DNA from: Pigoraptor vietnamica
Lineage: Eukaryota; Opisthokonta; Filasterea
Reading direction: 5' to 3'
DNA: 64,000 nt
Assembly: GCA_943704525.1 (NCBI GenBank)
Contig: CALSCQ010003162.1
Coordinates: forward strand, 60,644-124,643
Part shown: piece by piece, positions 1,731-39,228 of the stretch
How positions within the stretch are numbered: the stretch's first letter is position 1
Layout: every line of letters starts with the position of its first letter
Position numbers and translations under genes: made by a program
Notes under the pieces: generated by a model
What the model saw: the letters and a program-made list of their open reading frames with translations, nothing else
Told to the model about the DNA's origin: nothing
Databases searched by the model: none

Positions 1731-2408
1731 TTATGCAAGAAGAGTGGCGAGCTCCCCACTCTGGTGCTTTCGGTGCGTGTCGTCGCAGCCCCCGACGTGC
1801 TTGCCCTTGATGAAGACGTTGGGGACGGTCGACTGCCCCGTAAGCTGCTTCAGGGCGTCCTGCATCTGCGAACCCTTGGCTGCGCATGTGATACGTTCAC
1901 CGAGAATGAGAACGGCGGAAATGCTGTTGGCCGGAGACGCAAAACGCGACCAAACGGTCCCCTTCTACCGTGGCGGTGTTCTCCCACAGCACTAGCAAGA
2001 CACTGTTCTCCCACAGCAATGGCAAGACACAGCACTCGAGTGCACACCGCAGCCACGCACCAACGGTGTCCAGTTCGACGGCATGGAACGAAACGCCAAT
2101 CTTGTCAAAGAGACCCTTCACCTTCACGCAGTACCTGCTCAGCAAGGCAGCGGCAATAAGCGCAATACTCGCAAGCCAGCGAACAGAAGCACACGCGCGT
2201 CTGCCCCGGGGACTATGGACATTGCCCATACGCACGGGCAATAGGTCTTTGAGAAGACGACGACATTGTGCGCTGCGATGGTCCGCTGGACCTCCTCCTT
2301 CACATCGGCCATGTTGTGGGCGAGGGCGCGCGGGGCGACTTGCGGCAGGCGGGCAGAGAACAGACGGGCGGCGTAAAGGGGCTGGCGCGTGGCACCAACA
2401 AGGCTCAT
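1731..2408 (-). CDS. Dithiol glutaredoxin
   Basis: Three exons close in phase: 2236-2408, 2061-2134 and 1731-1879, giving 131 aa. Exon 1 ends inside the active site and exon 2 resumes with G-TAC-TGC, so splicing rebuilds a CPYC dithiol motif (SKTYCPYCVKVKGLF). Exon 3 carries GSQMQDALKQLTGQ, TVPNVFIKG (the cis-Pro TVP motif) and HVGGCDD (the GG glutathione-binding motif), all standard for the CPYC glutaredoxin class that reduces glutathione mixed disulfides. About 30 residues precede the internal Met of MADVKEEV; this stretch is rich in R, A, L and S and lacks acidic residues, so mitochondrial targeting from the first Met and a cytosolic form from the second are both possible. The gene is head to head with LRR1, only 140 bp between start codons. 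Confidence 0.9.
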
Positions 2409-2469
2409 CTTGGCTAATCTACGGAGGAGCGGGTGACTGCTGCCTGTTGTGCATGTGGGTCACCCATCG

Positions 2470-2477
2470 CACGTGAC
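2470..2477 (+). promoter_or_regulatory. CACGTGAC element in a 140-bp divergent promoter
   Basis: CACGTGAC lies between the divergent starts of the glutaredoxin (2408, minus) and LRR1 (2549, plus) genes. The core is an E-box/G-box, bound by bHLH-type factors in many eukaryotes. The same 8-mer recurs upstream of other genes in the window. Function is inferred only. Confidence 0.3.
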
Positions 2478-2548
2478 ACACTGCGCGCCAAAAATCAAAA
2501 AAACACCGCCGGCAATGGCAAACCCTGCCGATACCGAAACGGCTGCGA

Positions 2549-4106
2549 ATGAAGCTGCTCTGCGACGCCGAGCTGGTCGCCGGAGGGGCCGCCGCGACGG
2601 GCGCTCCGTCACGGCGGCCTGCGGCGGCGGCGGCGCTGGTGGTCTCACGGGAGGGCGGGCGATTGCGCCTCACGGTGCGAATGGCACGGGGCGGCGGGGC
2701 GTACGACGTGGGTGCTTTGTTTCTCATCCCATTCTCAGCCCATCTCCCTCACTTCCCATGGCGCCTCTGCTCATGATGCCGTTTGGTCCCTGTTTATTCA
2801 CGGCGCGCAGCTTGAGGGGAATGTGGCTCGCATCTTCTCGAAATTTGCGGACACGGGCAAGGCCACTATTCGCTTAGTGCGGCCGCCACACGACATATGC
2901 ATCAGCCGTGTGGGTGTGCGTTCTCATTCGCACATGTGGGGGCTTGTAATCGCATGGCCTTGCGCACTGCAGTCGTTGCAATGCAGTCTGACCTACCTGT
3001 GTGTACCGATCTCTCACTTTCAGGCCAAGGCGCCGTCGCTGCTCCGCTTTCTGTCTCTAGTCCACCGCGCTTCGGAGAAACCGTCCACTATTGCCGACGA
3101 AGACCTTTCTATCGGCGAAACTCCCTCTGTTCCTGTCAAGAAAAACGCCGAGGTGACAGCGCCAGTGGTGGGTGATCGGCCGAAGGGAGGCCTTGTCGGC
3201 GCCACGGACCTGCAGCGCCGCATGACGGTTGCGAAGGGGGCGCGCGCCATTCCAGCCGTCGTTCCGCCACAGCTGAGTGCGCTTGCCATCGAGGACCGCC
3301 GCGCACTCGAGTTGCTGCAGCAGACGGACGCGCTCGTGCTGCTCGAGACGCTCGAATTGTGCGGGTGTGCGCTTGACAAGGTGCCGCCGGCCGTGTCCTC
3401 CCTCACGGCGCTGACGACGCTCCGACTCCGGGGCAACCGCCTGCGCTCGCTGCCGGAGAGCATTGGGCGCCTGAGGGCCCTTGCGCACCTCGATGTGAGC
3501 GACAATGCCCTCGCGTGCCTCCCGCGAGCCCTTTTTGGCCTGCGTTCGCTCGCAACCCTCCGCGCGGCCAACAACAGGATCGCCGAACTGCCAGCGGCCA
3601 TTGCAGGCTTGAGCGCTCTACGTCACCTCGACGTCAGCGGAAATGCGCTCACGGCGCTTCCGCGCGAGCTCTTCCGACTGTCCCTGCGCGAGTTTCGCTT
3701 TGCGGGCAATGCCTTTGAGCGGCAGCGTCGCCTGGACCTCTCTGGCGTGCGCGCGCCAACACTCTTCGAGATCAGTGCGCGCGCGCTCCTGGCCATGCAC
3801 GTTGCCGACCGCGCCGTTCTCATGGGCGCGATGTTTGGCGACGCGGCGGAACTCCCGCCCTTTGTGGCCGAGGCGCTCGACGGCCGGCTGTGCATGCGCT
3901 GCGGCGGGGCTTACTACCAAGGCAACTGCATTGTGCTCGTGGACGTTGCGCGGCTGCCGCCCTCGTTCGCGTGCCAGACGGACGCCGACTGCGCCTCGCC
4001 CATGGTTGCCATCGAGCATAGGTGGTGCGCATGGCGTTGCGCGGCCGAAAATCCCGCTTTCCGGCGCGCACTCTCGGCGCGGCAGGGCGGCGAGCACCCC
4101 TCATGA
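2549..4106 (+). CDS. LRR1: LRR1 (PPIL5)-type leucine-rich repeat protein
   Basis: Exons 2549-2707, 2811-2909 and 3024-4106 join in phase 0 and give 446 aa. The N-terminus (MKLLCDAELV, then ARIFSKFADTGKATIRL and PPHDICIS) matches the PH-like start of animal LRR1, where M-K-L-x-C and F-x-K-F-x-D-x-G-K-A-T-x-R-L are conserved. Five or six leucine-rich repeats follow (~residues 195-320). The C-terminal domain has four or more cysteines (LCMRCGGAYYQ, later C-x-TDADC and C-AWRC) as in LRR1. In animals LRR1 is the substrate receptor of Cullin-2 E3 ligase that ubiquitylates the MCM7 subunit of terminated CMG helicase. I infer the same role here from the family. It shares a short promoter with glutaredoxin and ends 41 bp from the stop of the convergent PHLPP-kinase gene. 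Confidence 0.88.
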
Positions 4107-4147
4107 GATTCCCGATACCTGTTTTTATTGCGCGCGTGACGGCCGCT

Positions 4148-7100
4148 TTAGATCCATCCCTCGAAATCCGCCGGGTTCTGCGGCTCGATCTTCTTTGCGT
4201 CGGGCTTTGACGGGGGTGCGGCGGTGCCGTTCTCGAGCTTGGCCCACTCGACGCCCTTGAAGAAGGCGTGGTGGATGACGTCCTCCTCGTCCGCCGTGGA
4301 TCCGAGGCGCGCCGCAGGGTCGCGCTGGAGGAGCGCCTTGAGGAATTCGCGCGCGCCCTTGTTGAGGCTGTGGGGAAAGTACGGGTCGCGCCCGGTGATC
4401 TGCAGAGGGCACAAGTCAGTCGGCATGCGACACTAACAGGGGACGCAGGCGGGTGTGGGTTGCGCACCTGTGCGTTGAGGTCGGCAATGTTGTCCGAGAA
4501 GAACGGCGGGCGGCCGACGAGCATCATGTAGAGCACGACGCCGACGCCCCACCAGTCGACCGCCTTGCCGTACGTCTCCTTGCGCACCATCTCGGGCGCC
4601 ATGAAGGCGGGCGTCCCGCAAAACTCCTTTGAGCTCAGCCCGCTCGAGGAGAGGCCGAAGTCGGCAATCTGCGACAAATTAAACACGACATTAGGCAACG
4701 CATGCGCACGCACCCCGCCGGCGCACGTGACCCACCTTGACATTTCCGTGCTCGTCCAGCAGGAGGTTGTGGAGGCTCATGTCGCGGTAGATGATGCCGT
4801 GCCGGTGCAAGAACCGCAGCCCCAGCGAAATCTGCGCGCCGTAGAAACGCGCCCGCTTCTCAGGGAAAGCGTCCTCGGGGCGGTCGGGCACTTTGAACGT
4901 GCCGCCGCCGACGTACTCCATCACGAGGTAGATGCGCCGCGGCGACTCAAAGTGCGCGCGCAGGCACACGAGGCTTGGGTGCTGCAGCTTGGCCATCGAC
5001 TTCTCAACGTCGACCTCGGACGTCGTGGCGCTCGCGCGGCTGAGGATTTTGACGGCGACAAGCTTGTTGTTGTGCTTCGCGAGGACGACCTTGCCGAACG
5101 AGCCCTCGCCCAGCACGCGCACAAACGCATAGTCGGCCATGAATCCGCTGGGCGCCGACCCCTGCGACGCCGACGGGGCATCTGCGGTCTCCTGGAGCGC
5201 TTCGGGCGCAATGTCCGGATCGGCGCTGCGCTCGACTGCGGGTATATAACGGACAAAGTGAGCAGGGACGAGCAATCAAAACATTCCACAGCATGGCAAT
5301 TAGACGGCGCCACTCACACGGCGAGAAAGAGATGACCATGACCGTGATGTTATCCTCGGACCCAAGCGCGTACGCAAGGTCGCGGAGGCGCCGCGCCGCA
5401 AGCACGGGGTCGCCGTTCGCCGCCTCAACCTCGCGCGCGGCTTCTTCGTACGACAAGACGTCCCAGATCCCGTCGCATGCCATGATCGCAAAGCGGTCGG
5501 CTGCCTCCAGGTACGTCTGCGCGATCGCGGGGATCGGCGTGACAAAGGGGTGCATGTACGTGTCGCCAAGGCAGCGCGACGTGGCCAACACGCCACACAC
5601 GCGGTCCTCGTCGCCCAAAAATCCGCCGGACATCGAGATGCGCTCGCGCTCCGAGAGCGTCGACGCCTTGTGCTTCGTGCTGAGGACCTCGGTCGTGCCG
5701 TTAGCGCGCTGGACGACGAGCTCGGAGTCGCCGACATTCGCAACAAATGTGTGCGTGCGCGCACCCTCCAAGTTGCTGTACATGACCACGCCGGTCGAGC
5801 CACAGCGACGCGAAATGGCGCCGAGCGACCGGTGCGCCTGCAAGAACGATGTGTAAAGGGCGCGCTCCGCATTGCCGCCGTACGTGCGGAGCTCGTCCGC
5901 AAGGATCTGCGGATAAGTCTTCTCGAGCTGCTGCGCGACCTCCGGGCCGGAGTGCCCGTCGAACACGGCAAACAGCGCCGAGCCGTCGTTGCCGCCGTAC
6001 CCGGGCCGGCAAATGCGGCTGTCCTCCATGCGGGGGCGACGACCAAGCAGCTCGGCACACCCAAAGCACCACCGCCCCTTCATCGCCGTGCTCACGTGCT
6101 CGACCACGCCCGCGAGTTCCTTGGGCGGCTCGGGGACGGCGCCGGGGGCCAGGCCCTCGAGCGTGAGGCGGCGCAGCTTGGAGAGCGGGCGGGGGTCCCA
6201 CGACGACCAGTTGACCTTGAGGGAGGCGTTGCCCGAGAGGTCAATGTTCTCGATGCCGGTGCAGCGGAGCAGGCACTGGGGCGGCTCGCGCAGGCGGTTG
6301 CAGCTGAGGTCCACCGTGGCAAACGCGGCGTCCGTCGGCAGCGCCTTGACCTGCACAATGTGGTTGCCGGAGAGCGTCAGGTACACGAGCTTCTTCAGGC
6401 GCGCGATGCCCTCGGGGACCGACTGGATCTTGTTGCCAGCGAGGTGCAGGCCCTCGAGCGCCTCGCAGTGGCTGATCGACGACGGAATGGCGTCGATGTT
6501 GTTGAAATTCATCGCAACCACGCGCAGCTTGGGCGACGCGAGCACGCGCTTGAGGACGTCCGTGCCGAGATTGTTCTTCGCGAGGTACAGCTCCTCGATG
6601 CCGTTGATTTGCGGGTCCGCGAGGGGCGGCAGGTCCGACAGCTTGTTCTCGCTCACGTTGAGCACGCGGAGCATGAAGGCCAGCTCAAAGAGGCGCGGGG
6701 GCAGCTGGGCAATGCGGTTGCGCTGCAGCTCCATAATCTGGATGCGGCACTTGCCGACCTTCTGCGGTATCTCCTCCAGCTCGTTGTCGCCTACGAACAG
6801 CCACTTGAGCGAGGGCACGTTGAAGATGCGCTCGGGCAGCGTGCGGAGGCGGTTCCCCTTCAGGATGAGGCTCTCGATCGCGGGCAGGTCGCACACGGCG
6901 TCGGTGAGCTCTGAGAGCCCGTTGTGCGCGAGATTGATCTTGGTGATCAGCTGCGGAACAACGCCGCCAAACGAGAACGACGAGATCGAGTTCTCTTGGA
7001 GCGCAATGGCCGTGGCGCCCTCCATGGCCACGACCGCCTCCCCACCGATGGAGCAGTGCGTCAGGTCCACCGTCGACAGCTTCGCGAGGCGCGCAATTGC

Positions 7101-8439
7101 CTGCGGATACGCCGTGAAAATGTTGCCTCGAGCGTCGAGCTTTGTGAGCGAGCCGAGCGAGGCGATCGATGCCGGCAGGGACGAGAGGCGGTTGTGGCCG
7201 ACTTCGAGCCGCTCGAGCGCGCTGAGCGAGCCAATGTCGTCCGGCAGCTTGTAGATCAGATTGCCCGTCGCGATGAGCGACCGCAGCGACTTGAGCGACG
7301 ACACAAACGCGGGCAGCTCGGAGAACTTGTTGAAGGCAATCACGAGCGTCTGGAGGTTGAGGCGTGCGAGGTCGTCCGGGAGCGACGAGAGGCGGTTGGC
7401 GTGCACGGCCAGCGTGCGCAGCTTCGTCAGGCGTGCGATGTCGCGGGGTATCTCCGAGATGAGGTTGCGGCTGAGGTCGAGCTGCGAGCGTGCGTGTGAG
7501 CCGCGTGCAAGGGAATAGCCGCAAATGCACCACGCGCGATTTCCGCGTCTCACCTCCTCCAGTTGGCCGAGCTCGAACAGGCCGTCGGGCACTGCACGGA
7601 GCTCGTTCTCGCTGATGATGACGGTGACCATCGACTTGAAAGGCGCGAGGCTGGCGACCGACGTGAAGCAGTTGCGCGTGAGGTTCACGAGCGTCGTCGT
7701 CCCCGCGACGTTGTGGTAGTCCGCGGGCACGGCCGTGATGCTCTGCCCGGTGAGGTCGAGGATGTTCGGGTTCATGGAAATGGCCGACTTGATCTTCGTC
7801 ACCCACTTCTTGTGATCGACCTTCGTTTCAGCGGCAAAGTAGAACGACTTGCTGCCGCCGCTCGCAGGCTGGATCATGAAGCTGAGGTCGCGCTTGTTGG
7901 GCGTCTCCTCAAACCGCGCGCCAATGAGCTCAATCACGCCCTTCGCGTCCGACTCGCCCGGCGCAAAGTACTTGAGGCGCGATCCGACAATCTCGCAGTT
8001 GCGCTTCTCCCACTTTTTGATGAGCGCGTGGCCCTCCTTGAGCAGCGAGCCCCGCAGCGACGCGCTCTCGACATGCCCGCCGACGGCATTCGTCTGGCGC
8101 CCCGACAGAAAGCGGAAGTAGTACGAGTGGTCGCCGTCACTGACGTCCGCGAGCTGTCCCGCAGAAAAGCCCAGCCGCAGCAGCAGCTCAAAGTGCAGCT
8201 CGAGGGGGCGCGTGGAGGGAGGGAGCGGTCGCTCGCACCCATTGCTCGTGCTCAGGAACAGCGCGCCCCCAATGTCCGCGACGGTGGTCGCGAGGGTGCA
8301 TTTGACCACGGAGAACGTCGACAAGTCGGGCTGTGAAGCAGGCGTGTGAGTTGCGGTGCTGACACGGAGCGGCGACGGACCACGCATCACGCCCACACAC
8401 CTTGTAGACGCGAATCGCGCCCTCCTTGGGGTAATCCAT
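4148..8439 (-). CDS. PHLPP-like RA/PH/LRR/PP2C phosphatase fused to AGC kinase
   Basis: Six exons (8401-8439, 7554-8330, 5318-7481, 4736-5235, 4468-4668, 4148-4399) close in phase and give 1310 aa. Domains in order: RA-like segment (residues ~5-90, GAIRVYKPDLSTFSVV); PH domain (~98-200, ending KKWVTKIKSAI); about 18-20 leucine-rich repeats (~205-700); PP2C domain (~740-993) with RRPRMED, FAVFDGHSG, ANVGDSE, ACDGIWD and SEDN; then a kinase (~1025-1280) with LGEGSFGKV, VAVKIL, YRDMSLHN, IADFG, APEM and DWWGVG. RA-PH-LRR-PP2C is the PHLPP order; PHLPP dephosphorylates the tails of AGC kinases such as Akt. The kinase belongs to the AGC group and ends with FEGWI. All PP2C metal-binding acids are present. 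In the kinase catalytic loop the usual Lys of D-L-K-x-x-N is Ser. The fusion intron (5236-5317) has a GTGAGT donor and CAG acceptor and no in-frame stop precedes it. Confidence 0.85.
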
Positions 8440-10176: not shown

Positions 10177-11117
10177 CTAGACAGCCTCGTGATGGGCAAG
10201 GATGACCATCGTGCGGTTGTGGTCGCGGAGCTTTCGGAAAAGCGAGGCGTAGAAGCGGCCGTGTAGGTAGAAGAGCACGGCCCACACGAGCCAGCAGAAG
10301 ATCATGAGGAACAGCTTGAAGTAGAAGGCAAAGTTGGTCGAGTTGGCGCCCAACAGGGGAATAAGAAATGAGCTGATGGTCCAGCCGATCGTGAAGCCCG
10401 CAATCACATACGAAGCAAGGTAAATCTTGAGCCGGCGTGACTCGGTCGAAGTGAGCGACACACGCCGCCACTGCGAGGGACCAAACTATGTGAGTAACGG
10501 TCACCCGCGCATTGAACCACAGAATTCGCATTGGAAATAAATGCATTGCGAATCCACTGCACCTGTTTCCATGGCTTGGTGCGGTACTCGACAATGTAGG
10601 GGAACTGGCAAATTTCGCAGCACATCTCGTCGGCCTTCTTGTTCGAGACGTTGATCCAATGCATGAGACATTCTTCGTGAACGAAACCGCCCGTACCCCG
10701 GCACAGACACGGCGAGAAGAGTCGCAGCGAGTCGTCGTGGACTCGGCAAATCCGGCATATGTCCCCGCACTCGGAGAACGCGGACCGCGTCGATTCCGAG
10801 CCCAACATGTTCAACGGCACCCGCAGCTCGGAAGTGTGTAATGCCACTACGCGCGACGTCTGTGCTTGTTCCGCACAGGGCCCCGCAGCCCCGCGCGGGA
10901 TGGGTCGCGGGACGCCACTGCCCGGCAATGCCTCGCCGCATTCCGTGAACTCAACCACGATCGAGTAAGCAGGCGGGTCGCGACTCTCGCCATACGACGA
11001 GCGCGCGCACGAGCGACTGCATGCTTCCTCATCAACCACGCTACTTGGCAGCGCCACGAAACACTCGACGTCGCGTCCGTCGGGCGCGTCCCTCACAGCC
11101 GCGAGCGCACTGTCCAT
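10177..11117 (-). CDS. MARCH-type RING-CH membrane E3 ubiquitin ligase
   Basis: Two exons (10521-11117 and 10177-10470) with a 50-nt intron give 296 aa. A RING-CH (C4HC3) finger lies near residues 118-170: CRICRVHDD, SPCLCRGTGGFVHEECLMHWI, CCEICQFPY, the Cys/His order of MARCH ligases. Downstream are two hydrophobic helices (LASYVIAGFTIGWTISSFLI and a second ending WAVLFYLHG), giving an N-in, C-in hairpin typical of the family. The ~115 residues before the finger are probably disordered. MARCH ligases ubiquitylate membrane proteins in the endomembrane system; substrate unknown. The gene converges on RPL12, with 192 bp between stops. Confidence 0.88.
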
Positions 11118-11456
11118 CTCCGTCCCGAAGGCCCCCCAAGGTCACTATCGCGAGCCCACAATGCCGTTCTCGCCAGGCATGTTCTTCTGACGCTGCGCTC
11201 GTTTCGTGGGCGAAGTCTTCCGTTCTTCAGCGATGCGACAAACACCTTCTGCGCCCACGTGAAAAGGTTGACCGTGACGTCCACCAGCGGACAACCCGGA
11301 CAATTAACACCCTATTCCATTTTGGGAACGTCCAGACATTCTGACGTCCAGACACAACTATATCGTCAATACTTTCACGGTTCCTCGTCGTTCAAAGTCA
11401 AGCGACGTTGACCAGTGCGGACATAGTGCGGCGCTGTCACAGGCGCGTCGTTGGCC
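11118..11456. other. Divergent promoter between MARCH and Aven genes
   Basis: About 340 bp between two start codons. It carries a short direct repeat, GACGTCCAG plus flank, near 11276-11284 and 11329-11352 (ACGTCCAGACA twice). I see no RNA gene or further coding exon. Confidence 0.4.
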
Positions 11457-35403: not shown

Positions 35404-38400
35404 CTATTCGGCCTGCGGGTTGTTGCGGAAGAGGTACTCTGCGAGGTAGTCGATGGGATCCTCCGGGCGCGTCTTGCACACCTCAATAAGACCCTGCTCA
35501 ACAGGGGAAAGGGCGCTGCGTCAGCGCACAGGCAAACCAACATGTGACAACATTCACGGGCACAACACACGTGCACACACACACACACACACACCATACT
35601 ACGCGCATACGCCACACAACGCACAGAACGCACCTTAGTGAGGGCCGGCATCACGTGCCGCATGAGGTAGTTGCGGAGGGGAATAGACTGCGCCTCAAGC
35701 ACCTCCTGTTCCTGCCGCTTGACCTCCTCGAGCCGCGATTTCTGCACGCACACACATGCGAGTTGTCAGCACATGCCCTCACCCCTCGCGCACACGCACA
35801 CGACATCCCGCATTGCATTTGTATGGCGAGGCTCACCCATTCGGCCTCCTTCTTGGTGCGGTCCGCGGCTTCCTCCGCCTCTCTTCGCTCCCTCTCCTCG
35901 TTCTCAAGCGCCTCGCGACGAGCCTACAAGAGTGCCACAAATAAGCCACAGCATTACAAATACATACCTCGCACACCAAAATTGAAACTCGCCAACGACA
36001 CACACAGCACTGACGCGGCACACTCACCCTCTCCTCGGCACTGAGGCGGTTGATCTCGGCAAGCTCTTCGGCGGTGGGACCGTAGTTGTGGGGCTCGCCG
36101 ACGGCGCGGAGCATCTCCTCAAACAGCTTGACGGGGTCCTCGTCGGCCTTGAGGATGATAGGGTGCACCTCGCGCTCGTCGAAAAAGTTGAGCACAGTGT
36201 CGTCCTCCGTGTTGGCCTGGCGGAACGACGCCAGCCGCCGCAGAAGTCCTGCAGACAAGACGAAGGAAGGGCGTGGGTTTAGGTTCAGGATGCATTGCAC
36301 AGGGTGCTGCCGCACACGCAATAGTAGGGAGTACGACGATGTGAACACGCGGCGCACCTTCTTCCGTGTTGTGCGTGCCCGCGACCTCCGCCTCGGGAAG
36401 GTTCATCACGCGCTCCTTGAGGAACTCGTCCGTCGTCTCGAGCGAAATGACAAACTCGGGCATAATGTTATTGGGGTCGTTCCGCTTGGCGTCGTCGTAC
36501 GTCTCTCCCTCGGGCACTGCGGGCCAGCAGACATATTAGCAACGTCATTCGACAAATCTTGTGCAAAGCAAAGGACAGCGCTCGCATGATACGCCACAAT
36601 GGGCAAGGCACGCGCACGCGACACTCACGCTTGAACAGCTCCTGCGCCTGCTCGTTCGTCTTCGGGAAGCCATCGAGCACATAACCCTGGTTGCGGCACG
36701 GCATCGACGACAGCTTCTCGCGGAAAAACTGGACGACGTGCTCGTCAGAGTACCGTCCGGCGTTCTCTCGCGCGCTGTCCCTCAGCTCCTCGAGCAGCTC
36801 CTTGTCGGCCTCCGCCTGAGCGTTCGCCTCCTCATCGTCCTCGTCGCCGTCGCCGCCGCCGTTCTCGCGGCCGACGCGGCCGGCACTGGCAGCGAGGCGC
36901 CTGAGCGAGTCGTTGATGACGTCCTGGACCTTGATGTGGTGGAGCTTGTAGTGCGTGCACAGCTTGGACGCAAAGAACGTCTTGCCGGAGGCCGGCGGCC
37001 CGTGGATCATGATGCGGAGAGGGTGGAGGTTGCGCGCCGTGCGGTACTCGGCGATAACGGCGTCAATGTTGTCGAGGAGACCCTCCTGCGATTGCACCGT
37101 CGGTCAGTCGTCGGGTGTGTGTGGCATACAGGCCTATCTATTGTGGTGATGTGCTCTGTGATTTCGTAAGGGTGTGCCCGTGTGCATGCTCGTGCTGCTT
37201 GCTTGCAGCAGCAAGCGTACCTCGCTCGTCCACTCGAACTTGAAGTCTTTGATGAGCGTGGCGTCGAGGCGCACGTCGACGAGCAGCATGTCGTAGTTGG
37301 CCTGCTCGAGGTCCTTCGTCAAGAGCGCGTCCTCCTTCGAGATCTTCTTCGTCTTGCCCGTGCCGAGGTTCACCGAGATGCACTGCGGGCGGGTAAGAGC
37401 GTCGTGTCAGCTTGTCATTATCCCAATTGTCCGAAATTCGCGCGCAGTGGGGGTACGCTGCATTAGGGCGCAACATAGATAGGGAAGGGCCCGCTCAGAG
37501 CCAAACATAGACGTCCATTTCCCGCTATCGCTTCCCCAGGATTTCAATTACGGGAGACCCCTTCCACACACAGCCACTTCTGAACGCACCTTGACAATGT
37601 CCTCGAGGGTGATCTTTGAGTCGTCCACGCACACAATGTAGCGCGTCTCCGGCTGCCGATCGACAATGTGGTGCAGCGAGCTTGCGAGGTCGTCGATGTG
37701 GATCGTGGGGACAACGTTGTCGCCGCGGCCAAAGATGTGCAGTTCCTGCGGCTCGCCATGCCAAGCGGCCTGTCGCGAGACGGGAAGCGAGGAAAGGTGA
37801 GACGTGAATTGCAGACAACGGCCTCATGGGACCATAGGTCGTGCAGTTCACGAGCACGAGTTCGCGAACGCAAGATCGGGTGCGAGTACCCTAGTTGCCT
37901 CACGGAACATCGAGATGAACAGCGAGAGAGCACCGACGCACCTTGAAGAGGAAGTGGAAAATGTTCTCGCCGCGCCCGTACGTGAGCCCAGTTGCGACGA
38001 CGTACGTGCTGAGCTTCGAGCGGTCGCCCTTGCCGGCCTTCACCACCGCCTTCTCGCAGTTGAGGTGCGGGCGGAAGTTGGGGTGGGCCTTGCGGCGACG
38101 ATAGTCGTCCTCCGTGAAGGGCGCGTCGGGCTCGTCCTGTAGAGTGCCAAGCACGCACGTGCGAGTGAGTACGCGCACATTTGACACAGGCGGACAACGA
38201 GCGCTTCGGCACAACGGAAGCAACCTGACACCCGGTAAGCACTAAACTAGTTACATCGAAACAGAGACTCACCCGATCGACCTTTGTCCGCGCCCACGTG
38301 AGCACCGTCGAGAGACACACAAAGACCTTCTTCCGCTCAAAGTTCTCGCTCTCCTTACGCAGCACTGCGCGTTTGCAGCAATGCAAGTCTCAGACACCCC

Positions 38401-39228
38401 AAACGAAATGCAGCGAAACGGCGGGGACAAAAAGAAACTGCTATAGAAAGAGGCACCGCAAGAGACTGATAGAAATAGCGCACGCAAGAAGGAGTGCGCA
38501 GAGTCAACAACAGAGAGCAAGAGACGAGACGCAACACGCGAGGAGAGACTGCGGGCGCACCTTCCACCGCCCAAAGCGCCTCCTCGACCTGGTCGATCTG
38601 CTCGCAAATGTCGTATATGATGTAGTCGCACTTCAGGAGGACGTCCCGCAGCGCCTCCCGCGTCATGTTCTGCAGTTCGACAGAGGGCAGATGCACATTA
38701 GTCACCGAATAACACGCAGTGAACCGCAGTCAGCTCAATGTGCACGTCACTCGTTTCTTGAAGCATTGCGCAGGGCGGCGGCATATAACAAGGCGACACT
38801 CTCAAGTCGGACAATGTTGGCACTCCAAACAACACAAAAAGTTGCGCCAATGGCGAACCACAACGGGCATCCCACGCACCCGCAGGGGCTCCTTGACCCA
38901 TTTCGGGACGTCTGCGTCCGGGTCGCGCATCGTGCCAACGACCTCATAGCGCAGCTCCTCCTTCACTTCGGCCTCCGAGTCGTTCGTCTCGGCCTCATCG
39001 CCCGACTCGTCGTCCTTGGCAAGCAAGCCGACGATCTGATCCGCAAATTTCTACAATGCCAGCACACACAGTGCGGTCAGTTCCCATCCACTGCGTGCAC
39101 ACACATAACAGCCGAGGAGACAGAATGCACGGTTCGTAAACAGCGGATACAGAAGGAGGGAAGCGCACCTTTGAGAGGGCCTTGCCCGTGTATGTGTCGA
39201 CGTGGTTGATGAAAATCTTGGCCGCCAT
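35404..39228 (-). CDS. AK7: Adenylate kinase 7 (ciliary)
   Basis: Thirteen exons (39169-39228, 38880-39050, 38561-38669, 38273-38364, 37942-38136, 37590-37769, 37221-37382, 36629-37085, 36358-36516, 36028-36248, 35837-35923, 35634-35741, 35404-35493) close in phase and give 696 aa; human AK7 has 723. The N-terminal half is a degenerate Rossmann/epimerase-like domain ([45 protein letters not shown]). The kinase domain has the P-loop HGPPASGKT (~352) and [13 protein letters not shown]. An acidic insert (EDDEEANAQ) lies between. A Glu/Arg-rich helix leads to a DPY-30 motif at the end ([16 protein letters not shown]). AK7 buffers adenine nucleotides in motile cilia, so the organism most likely has flagella. 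Confidence 0.95.

Follow-up and report, generated by a model that had tools for sequence, protein, structure and literature searches.

We analysed a window of 64,000 nucleotides from the filasterean Pigoraptor vietnamica (contig CALSCQ010003162.1 of assembly GCA_943704525.1, positions 60,644 to 124,643 of the forward strand), in which a gene on the minus strand encodes a PHLPP-type phosphatase followed, in one reading frame, by a kinase core of AGC type. Our best reading of the protein, to which we give a probability of about 0.5, is a phosphatase recruited to the membrane and joined to an AGC-derived module, a weak or dead kinase that would serve docking or regulation. Such a PHLPP-AGC kinase fusion is not new. 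Husremovic et al. reported in 2025 that some PHLPP homologues of unicellular holozoans carry a C-terminal kinase, assigned to the AGC group by phylogeny, and they left the functional role of this kinase unclear (PMC12002173; this and the other papers below are cited from excerpts). A sequence-only reading of the window had known of no such fusion and had proposed a self-contained phosphorylation switch, in which the phosphatase would act on its own kinase. Its PHLPP domain order, in-frame junction and phosphatase catalytic residues stand; its novelty and the switch at classical kinase sites do not.

In the PDB the kinase half comes closest to PKC-alpha (E 3.6e-68), followed by PKC-eta, PKC-beta and Akt2. 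Numbered on PKA by pairwise alignment, it carries the changes K168S, E127T, E170H, E230M, K189S and T197E, and both S338 and the hydrophobic motif are absent. E230M rests on one pairwise alignment, and the E230 pattern matched no locus, the fusion included. In PKA, E127, E170 and E230 bind basic residues of the substrate.

The C-terminal tail of AGC kinases is missing as well, so that the domain is not the full one that had been claimed. The chain ends 37 residues beyond the Pfam core; Pkinase_C has no match in the fusion protein, against 11 matching places elsewhere in the genome; no turn motif is encoded (there is no TP within the last 45 residues) and the protein holds no string resembling a hydrophobic motif. 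A 3' exon with a hydrophobic motif, sought by pattern in the three minus-strand frames of window positions 2000-4260, gave no match. A convergent leucine-rich-repeat frame on the plus strand has its end at 4106, some 40 nt away from that of the fusion gene, so that any further 3' exon of the fusion would overlap it. NCBIfam matches were limited to remote kinase families of bacteria and archaea, none of which reached its cut-off. At the level of sequence, the fusion is shown to carry a kinase without the three classical AGC phosphorylation sites and without the catalytic-loop Lys.

We compared these positions with other kinases of the same genome (32.5 Mb, 1395 contigs). The comparison covered 41 partly overlapping kinase loci: 11 came from the search with Pkinase_C, and 30 were the top matches to a query with the fusion kinase; three are the fusion itself. 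The scan caught 26 distinct catalytic loops. Lys is present in 25 of them, and the fusion alone has Ser; the pattern demands RD and N, so that odder loops escape it, and no caught loop had the Ala of tyrosine kinases. Eighteen distinct activation segments were caught (tallies counted by eye from the scan listing), 14 of them of the CGT type. Thr stands two residues before the Cys in 12 of these 14, the others being the fusion, with Glu, and locus L057, with Gln. The position of E127 is acidic in 19 of 22 distinct strings and Thr in the fusion, L061 and L062. The pseudokinase VRK3 is described as having lost the same catalytic-loop Lys, among several other losses.

The meaning of Glu1175, the residue at the activation-loop Thr site, can be judged from published work on AGC kinases. 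The abstract of Somale et al. 2020 states that acidic substitutions at the activation loop are absent across AGC evolution, while their introduction speaks of an unusually low frequency at this site; besides the human AGC set, they covered plant AGC1 kinases and a few further ones (PMC6969211). The experiments that they review found that acidic loop residues strongly lower AGC kinase activity, with PKC-delta as the sole exception, and, MAST excepted, the AGC subfamilies that are independent of loop phosphorylation lack the beta-9 Lys, K189 of PKA (PMC6969211). As acidic substitutions lower activity and the beta-9 Lys is also gone, Glu1175 is not expected to be a simple constitutive activation. 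Probably the activation loop is no longer under phosphorylation control, and Glu1175 is an apparent exception to the published rule on AGC activation loops.

These residues also bear on the possibility that the protein is a bifunctional enzyme, its kinase active without loop phosphorylation because Glu1175 stands for the phospho-Thr, and both activities directed at shared third-party membrane proteins. We regard this as possible but doubtful. The retention of most catalytic residues is in its favour, and the KEFCGTP loop resembles that of a crystallised PKC-alpha chain (3iw4), which reads REFCGTP with Glu at the site, while PKC-alpha chain 4ra4 has Thr; the Glu of 3iw4 was presumably engineered. 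Oomycete PP2C-CAP-kinase proteins have likewise been termed bifunctional by their authors, on domain grounds (PMC10925823). This proposal is opposed by the lowering of AGC activity by acidic loop residues outside PKC-delta (PMC6969211), by the replacement with Ser of the beta-9 Lys, the partner of the phosphate, and by the loss of the catalytic Lys together with three substrate-pocket acids, the third of which, E230, depends on the single alignment.

Several further observations weigh against a weak or dead kinase. The glycine loop, the Lys of VAVK, the Arg and Asp of HRD, the catalytic Asn, DFG and APE are all kept, and with most catalytic residues in place the domain could still function as a kinase. 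An Arg takes over the role of the catalytic Lys in tyrosine kinases, and His1149 might do so here. The tyrosine-kinase loop pattern (HRDLAARN and a few near forms) has 28 matches in the genome, with none in the reversed control; as these have Ala at the Lys position, kinases without a catalytic-loop Lys are not rare in this organism. The four activation segments that are not of the CGT type also deviate, with Ser at the site in L043 and Val, Met and Ala at or near it in L018, L017 and L061. The alpha-C Glu is not surely placed: its site is Val in the pairwise alignment with a Glu one residue later, and phmmer aligned the VEK stretch. PKA itself has a truncated hydrophobic motif (PMC6969211), so that loss of the tail alone is no demonstration of inactivity.

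The self-contained switch, in which the PP2C would dephosphorylate its own kinase at the regulatory tail or the loop, is unsupported because the kinase sites that it requires are not encoded. A phosphatase and a kinase do lie in one chain, joined by a Ser-rich linker of 44 residues, and regulation in cis could use non-classical sites, such as the eight Ser/Thr of residues 986-1030 or T1286 and S1291 in the short C-terminal end. The turn and hydrophobic motifs are, however, absent from the protein, no hydrophobic-motif-like match was found in the downstream frames searched, and the activation-loop Thr is Glu. On these three grounds the tail switch at classical sites was rejected, and a switch of any kind, cis-regulation at non-classical sites included, appears improbable. 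The premise that PHLPP acts on the tails of Akt and PKC has, moreover, come into dispute, human PHLPP2 having been inactive when purified (PMC12002173).

In the phosphatase half, the PP2C domain contains the stretches RPRMED, DGHSG, ACDGIWD and SEDN, with RMED at residues 756-759, DGHSG at 780-784, CDG at 941-943 and EDN at 981-983. Its best relatives in the PDB are plant proteins, 'Protein phosphatase 2C 56' (which we take to be ABI1) and similar entries, and the alignment to them retains the RxxxED, DGH, DG and DN residues. These are the metal-site residues of PP2C, and the matched plant enzymes are active. The PP2C of the fusion keeps its metal-site residues, and the phosphatase half is probably catalytically active. 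Others have demonstrated activity for a related LRR-PP2C protein of Stenamoeba (PMC12002173). The same study reports that unicellular holozoan PHLPPs retain the PP2C active-site residues, which are missing in ancestral Cyr1 (PMC12002173). The present genome agrees with this pattern, since its Cyr1-type PP2C is degenerate, with ATGSVWE in place of the expected ACDGIWD.

This Cyr1-type gene (contig C799, L065:2116-7510) has pieces of RA_3, LRR, degenerate PP2C and adenylyl cyclase, in this order and on one strand; Pfam found no PH domain in the six C799 pieces scanned. A third RA_3-LRR gene lies on contig C847 (L066:188-6411, minus strand). Close to the edge of the contig it has a piece resembling PP2C, with DGQGG where PP2C has DGHGG, and Pfam gave no PP2C call there. 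Guanylate_cyc has 96 separate matches in the genome. As they fall exon by exon, the number of genes is smaller; three of the matches lie in open frames of more than 1400 residues. The genome holds a large family of nucleotide cyclases. With human EF-1A as query, its first 77 residues were recovered at a contig edge with 97% identity, and C-terminal pieces of 33 residues (85%) at edges of contigs C310 and C435; the stretch with the opisthokont insertion is not among them. Three matches to the EF-Tu/EF-1A domain look by eye like other members of that family, and an rRNA pattern had no hits. Together with the Cyr1-type gene and the tyrosine-kinase loop matches, the EF-1A identity is compatible with a unicellular holozoan without proving it.

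We propose that the RA and PH domains would recruit the protein to the membrane through a small GTPase, a phosphoinositide or both, and that the LRR-PP2C body would be a working metal-dependent phosphatase whose targets would be other membrane proteins. Neither phosphorylation of the PDK1/mTORC2 type nor, at the classical sites, its own phosphatase would still control the kinase core. Most likely weakly active or a pseudokinase, this core would provide the phosphatase with a dock for substrates or partners. It occupies the C-terminal output position that the cyclase holds in the sister Cyr1 gene.

The gene model behind these readings is given in Table 1. Joining of the exons yields 3933 nt, which encode the 1310 residues and a stop; every phase closes, there are no internal stops, and all five introns are GT-AG. 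This bears out the earlier junction intron of 82 nt, the length of the protein and the open frame between its parts. Pfam, run on the 1310-residue protein, called each domain above its own curated cut-off, which confirms RA, PH, LRR and PP2C in the PHLPP order, here with a C-terminal kinase in the same frame. RA_3 is PF23010, the Pfam 'PHLPP protein RA domain', and thus the RA domain is of PHLPP type. In the PDB the RA-PH part has weak PH matches only (best E 0.0022). Guanylate_cyc had no Pfam match in the 1310-residue protein, which therefore lacks the C-terminal adenylyl cyclase that marks Cyr1.

Table 1. Features of the fusion gene in the window
Feature	Position	Strand	Basis or remark
Whole gene	8439-4148	minus	6 exons, 1310 aa; stop codon 4150-4148
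RA_3, aa 9-88	8106-8415	minus	Pfam E 1.4e-9, 38.6 bits against cut-off 27; split by intron 1
Intron 1, 70 nt	8331-8400	minus	exon-joined gene model
PH, aa 106-197	7779-8054	minus	Pfam E 2.3e-11
Leucine-rich repeats, about aa 210-735	6093-7742	minus	Pfam LRR_8 E 5.7e-47; split by intron 2; outer limits set by eye
Intron 2, 72 nt	7482-7553	minus	exon-joined gene model; inside the leucine-rich repeats
PP2C, aa 751-984	5346-6047	minus	Pfam E 5.6e-51
Intron 3 (junction intron), 82 nt	5317-5236	minus	phase 1, GTGAGT...CAG
AGC-type kinase core (Pkinase), aa 1029-1273	4262-5131	minus	Pfam E 3.3e-58; split by introns 4 and 5
Catalytic-loop Lys site, Ser1147 (YRDMSLHN)	4775-4777	minus	genome loop scan and PKA alignment
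Intron 4, 67 nt	4669-4735	minus	exon-joined gene model
Activation-loop Thr site, Glu1175 (SSKEFCGTP)	4624-4626	minus	genome loop scan and PKA alignment
Intron 5, 68 nt	4400-4467	minus	exon-joined gene model
Short C-terminal end, aa 1274-1310	4151-4261	minus	no turn or hydrophobic motif; no Pkinase_C match
AATAAA polyadenylation-like signal	4124-4129	minus	18 nt past the kinase stop codon

Since the PP2C frame is open, no polyadenylation hexamer lies at the junction, the phases close and similar fusions are in print (PMC12002173), a single gene spanning the PHLPP part and the kinase is credible, with splicing across the junction intron deduced from the sequence. The frame of the PP2C runs free of stops until 5006, already within the kinase exon, and neither AATAAA nor ATTAAA occurs between 5345 and 5100. 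The contrary view, that a kinase-less PHLPP gene and a separate AGC kinase starting from the Met at 5140 were misjoined, can draw on this in-frame Met (residue 1026), three residues upstream of the kinase core. The base composition of the junction intron (GC 0.51, against 0.61-0.66 in the other four introns and 0.61 in the window) says little on gene unity and does not decide against two genes. Given the evidence for one gene, published fusions of other species among it, we rejected the two-gene artefact, which is very improbable.

Known systems share parts of this architecture. The gene is best explained, from its domains and residues, as encoding a PHLPP protein of pre-metazoan type. With the published holozoan PHLPP-kinases it has in common a PHLPP with PH, the PP2C active-site residues and the C-terminal AGC kinase, and the unicellular holozoans of that study retain a Cyr1 paralogue (PMC12002173), as does the present genome. 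The legend to their Fig. 6B includes Capsaspora and Corallochytrium among its species and does not tell which bear the kinase (PMC12002173); Leonard 2026 retells the same PHLPP history (PMC13358185). Metazoan PHLPP1 and PHLPP2 share the RA-PH-LRR-PP2C order, but their PP2C is reported to be a pseudophosphatase and they have no kinase (PMC12002173), whereas the present protein has both the PP2C residues and a kinase. Fungal and holozoan Cyr1 shares the RA-LRR-PP2C body and a C-terminal output enzyme, which is a cyclase instead of a kinase, and the copy in this genome has a degenerate PP2C. In plants there are proteins that combine PP2C, a cyclic-nucleotide-binding domain and a kinase, and these, like their oomycete counterparts, have PP2C and a Ser/Thr kinase in one chain, as here. 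In P. sojae 5 of 29 PPMs combine PP2C and kinase; in the excerpts of that paper a CAP domain accompanies the kinase, and RA, PH and LRR are not reported alongside (PMC10925823).

Other genes were observed near the fusion. The convergent plus-strand frame (3003-4103) encodes a leucine-rich-repeat protein (LRR_8 E 2.1e-20) with a C-terminal part that is Cys-rich by eye. A minus-strand frame at 10404-11141 has a RINGv-like Cys/His pattern and is, we assume, perhaps a MARCH-type ubiquitin ligase. Upstream of the window, the same contig carries a Pkinase_C-tailed AGC kinase and, at a distance of about 6 kb from it, separate pieces of PP2C (C1305:30646-31716 and 37958-39035).

In summary, the residue evidence narrows the question that the 2025 PHLPP study left unexplained, the role of the pre-metazoan PHLPP kinase. 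In this species the kinase cannot serve its own phosphatase as a classical tail substrate, and it may be an unconventional AGC kinase. We tentatively suggest that the AGC domain has evolved into a pseudokinase or a phosphorylation-independent kinase, which an active PHLPP phosphatase has kept as a module for docking or allosteric control. If this is true, Glu1175 would be a naturally occurring departure from the published absence of acidic activation-loop substitutions in AGC evolution. The kinase would be decaying in this lineage beside an intact phosphatase, the opposite of the decay in animals, where the phosphatase is dead and the kinase lost.

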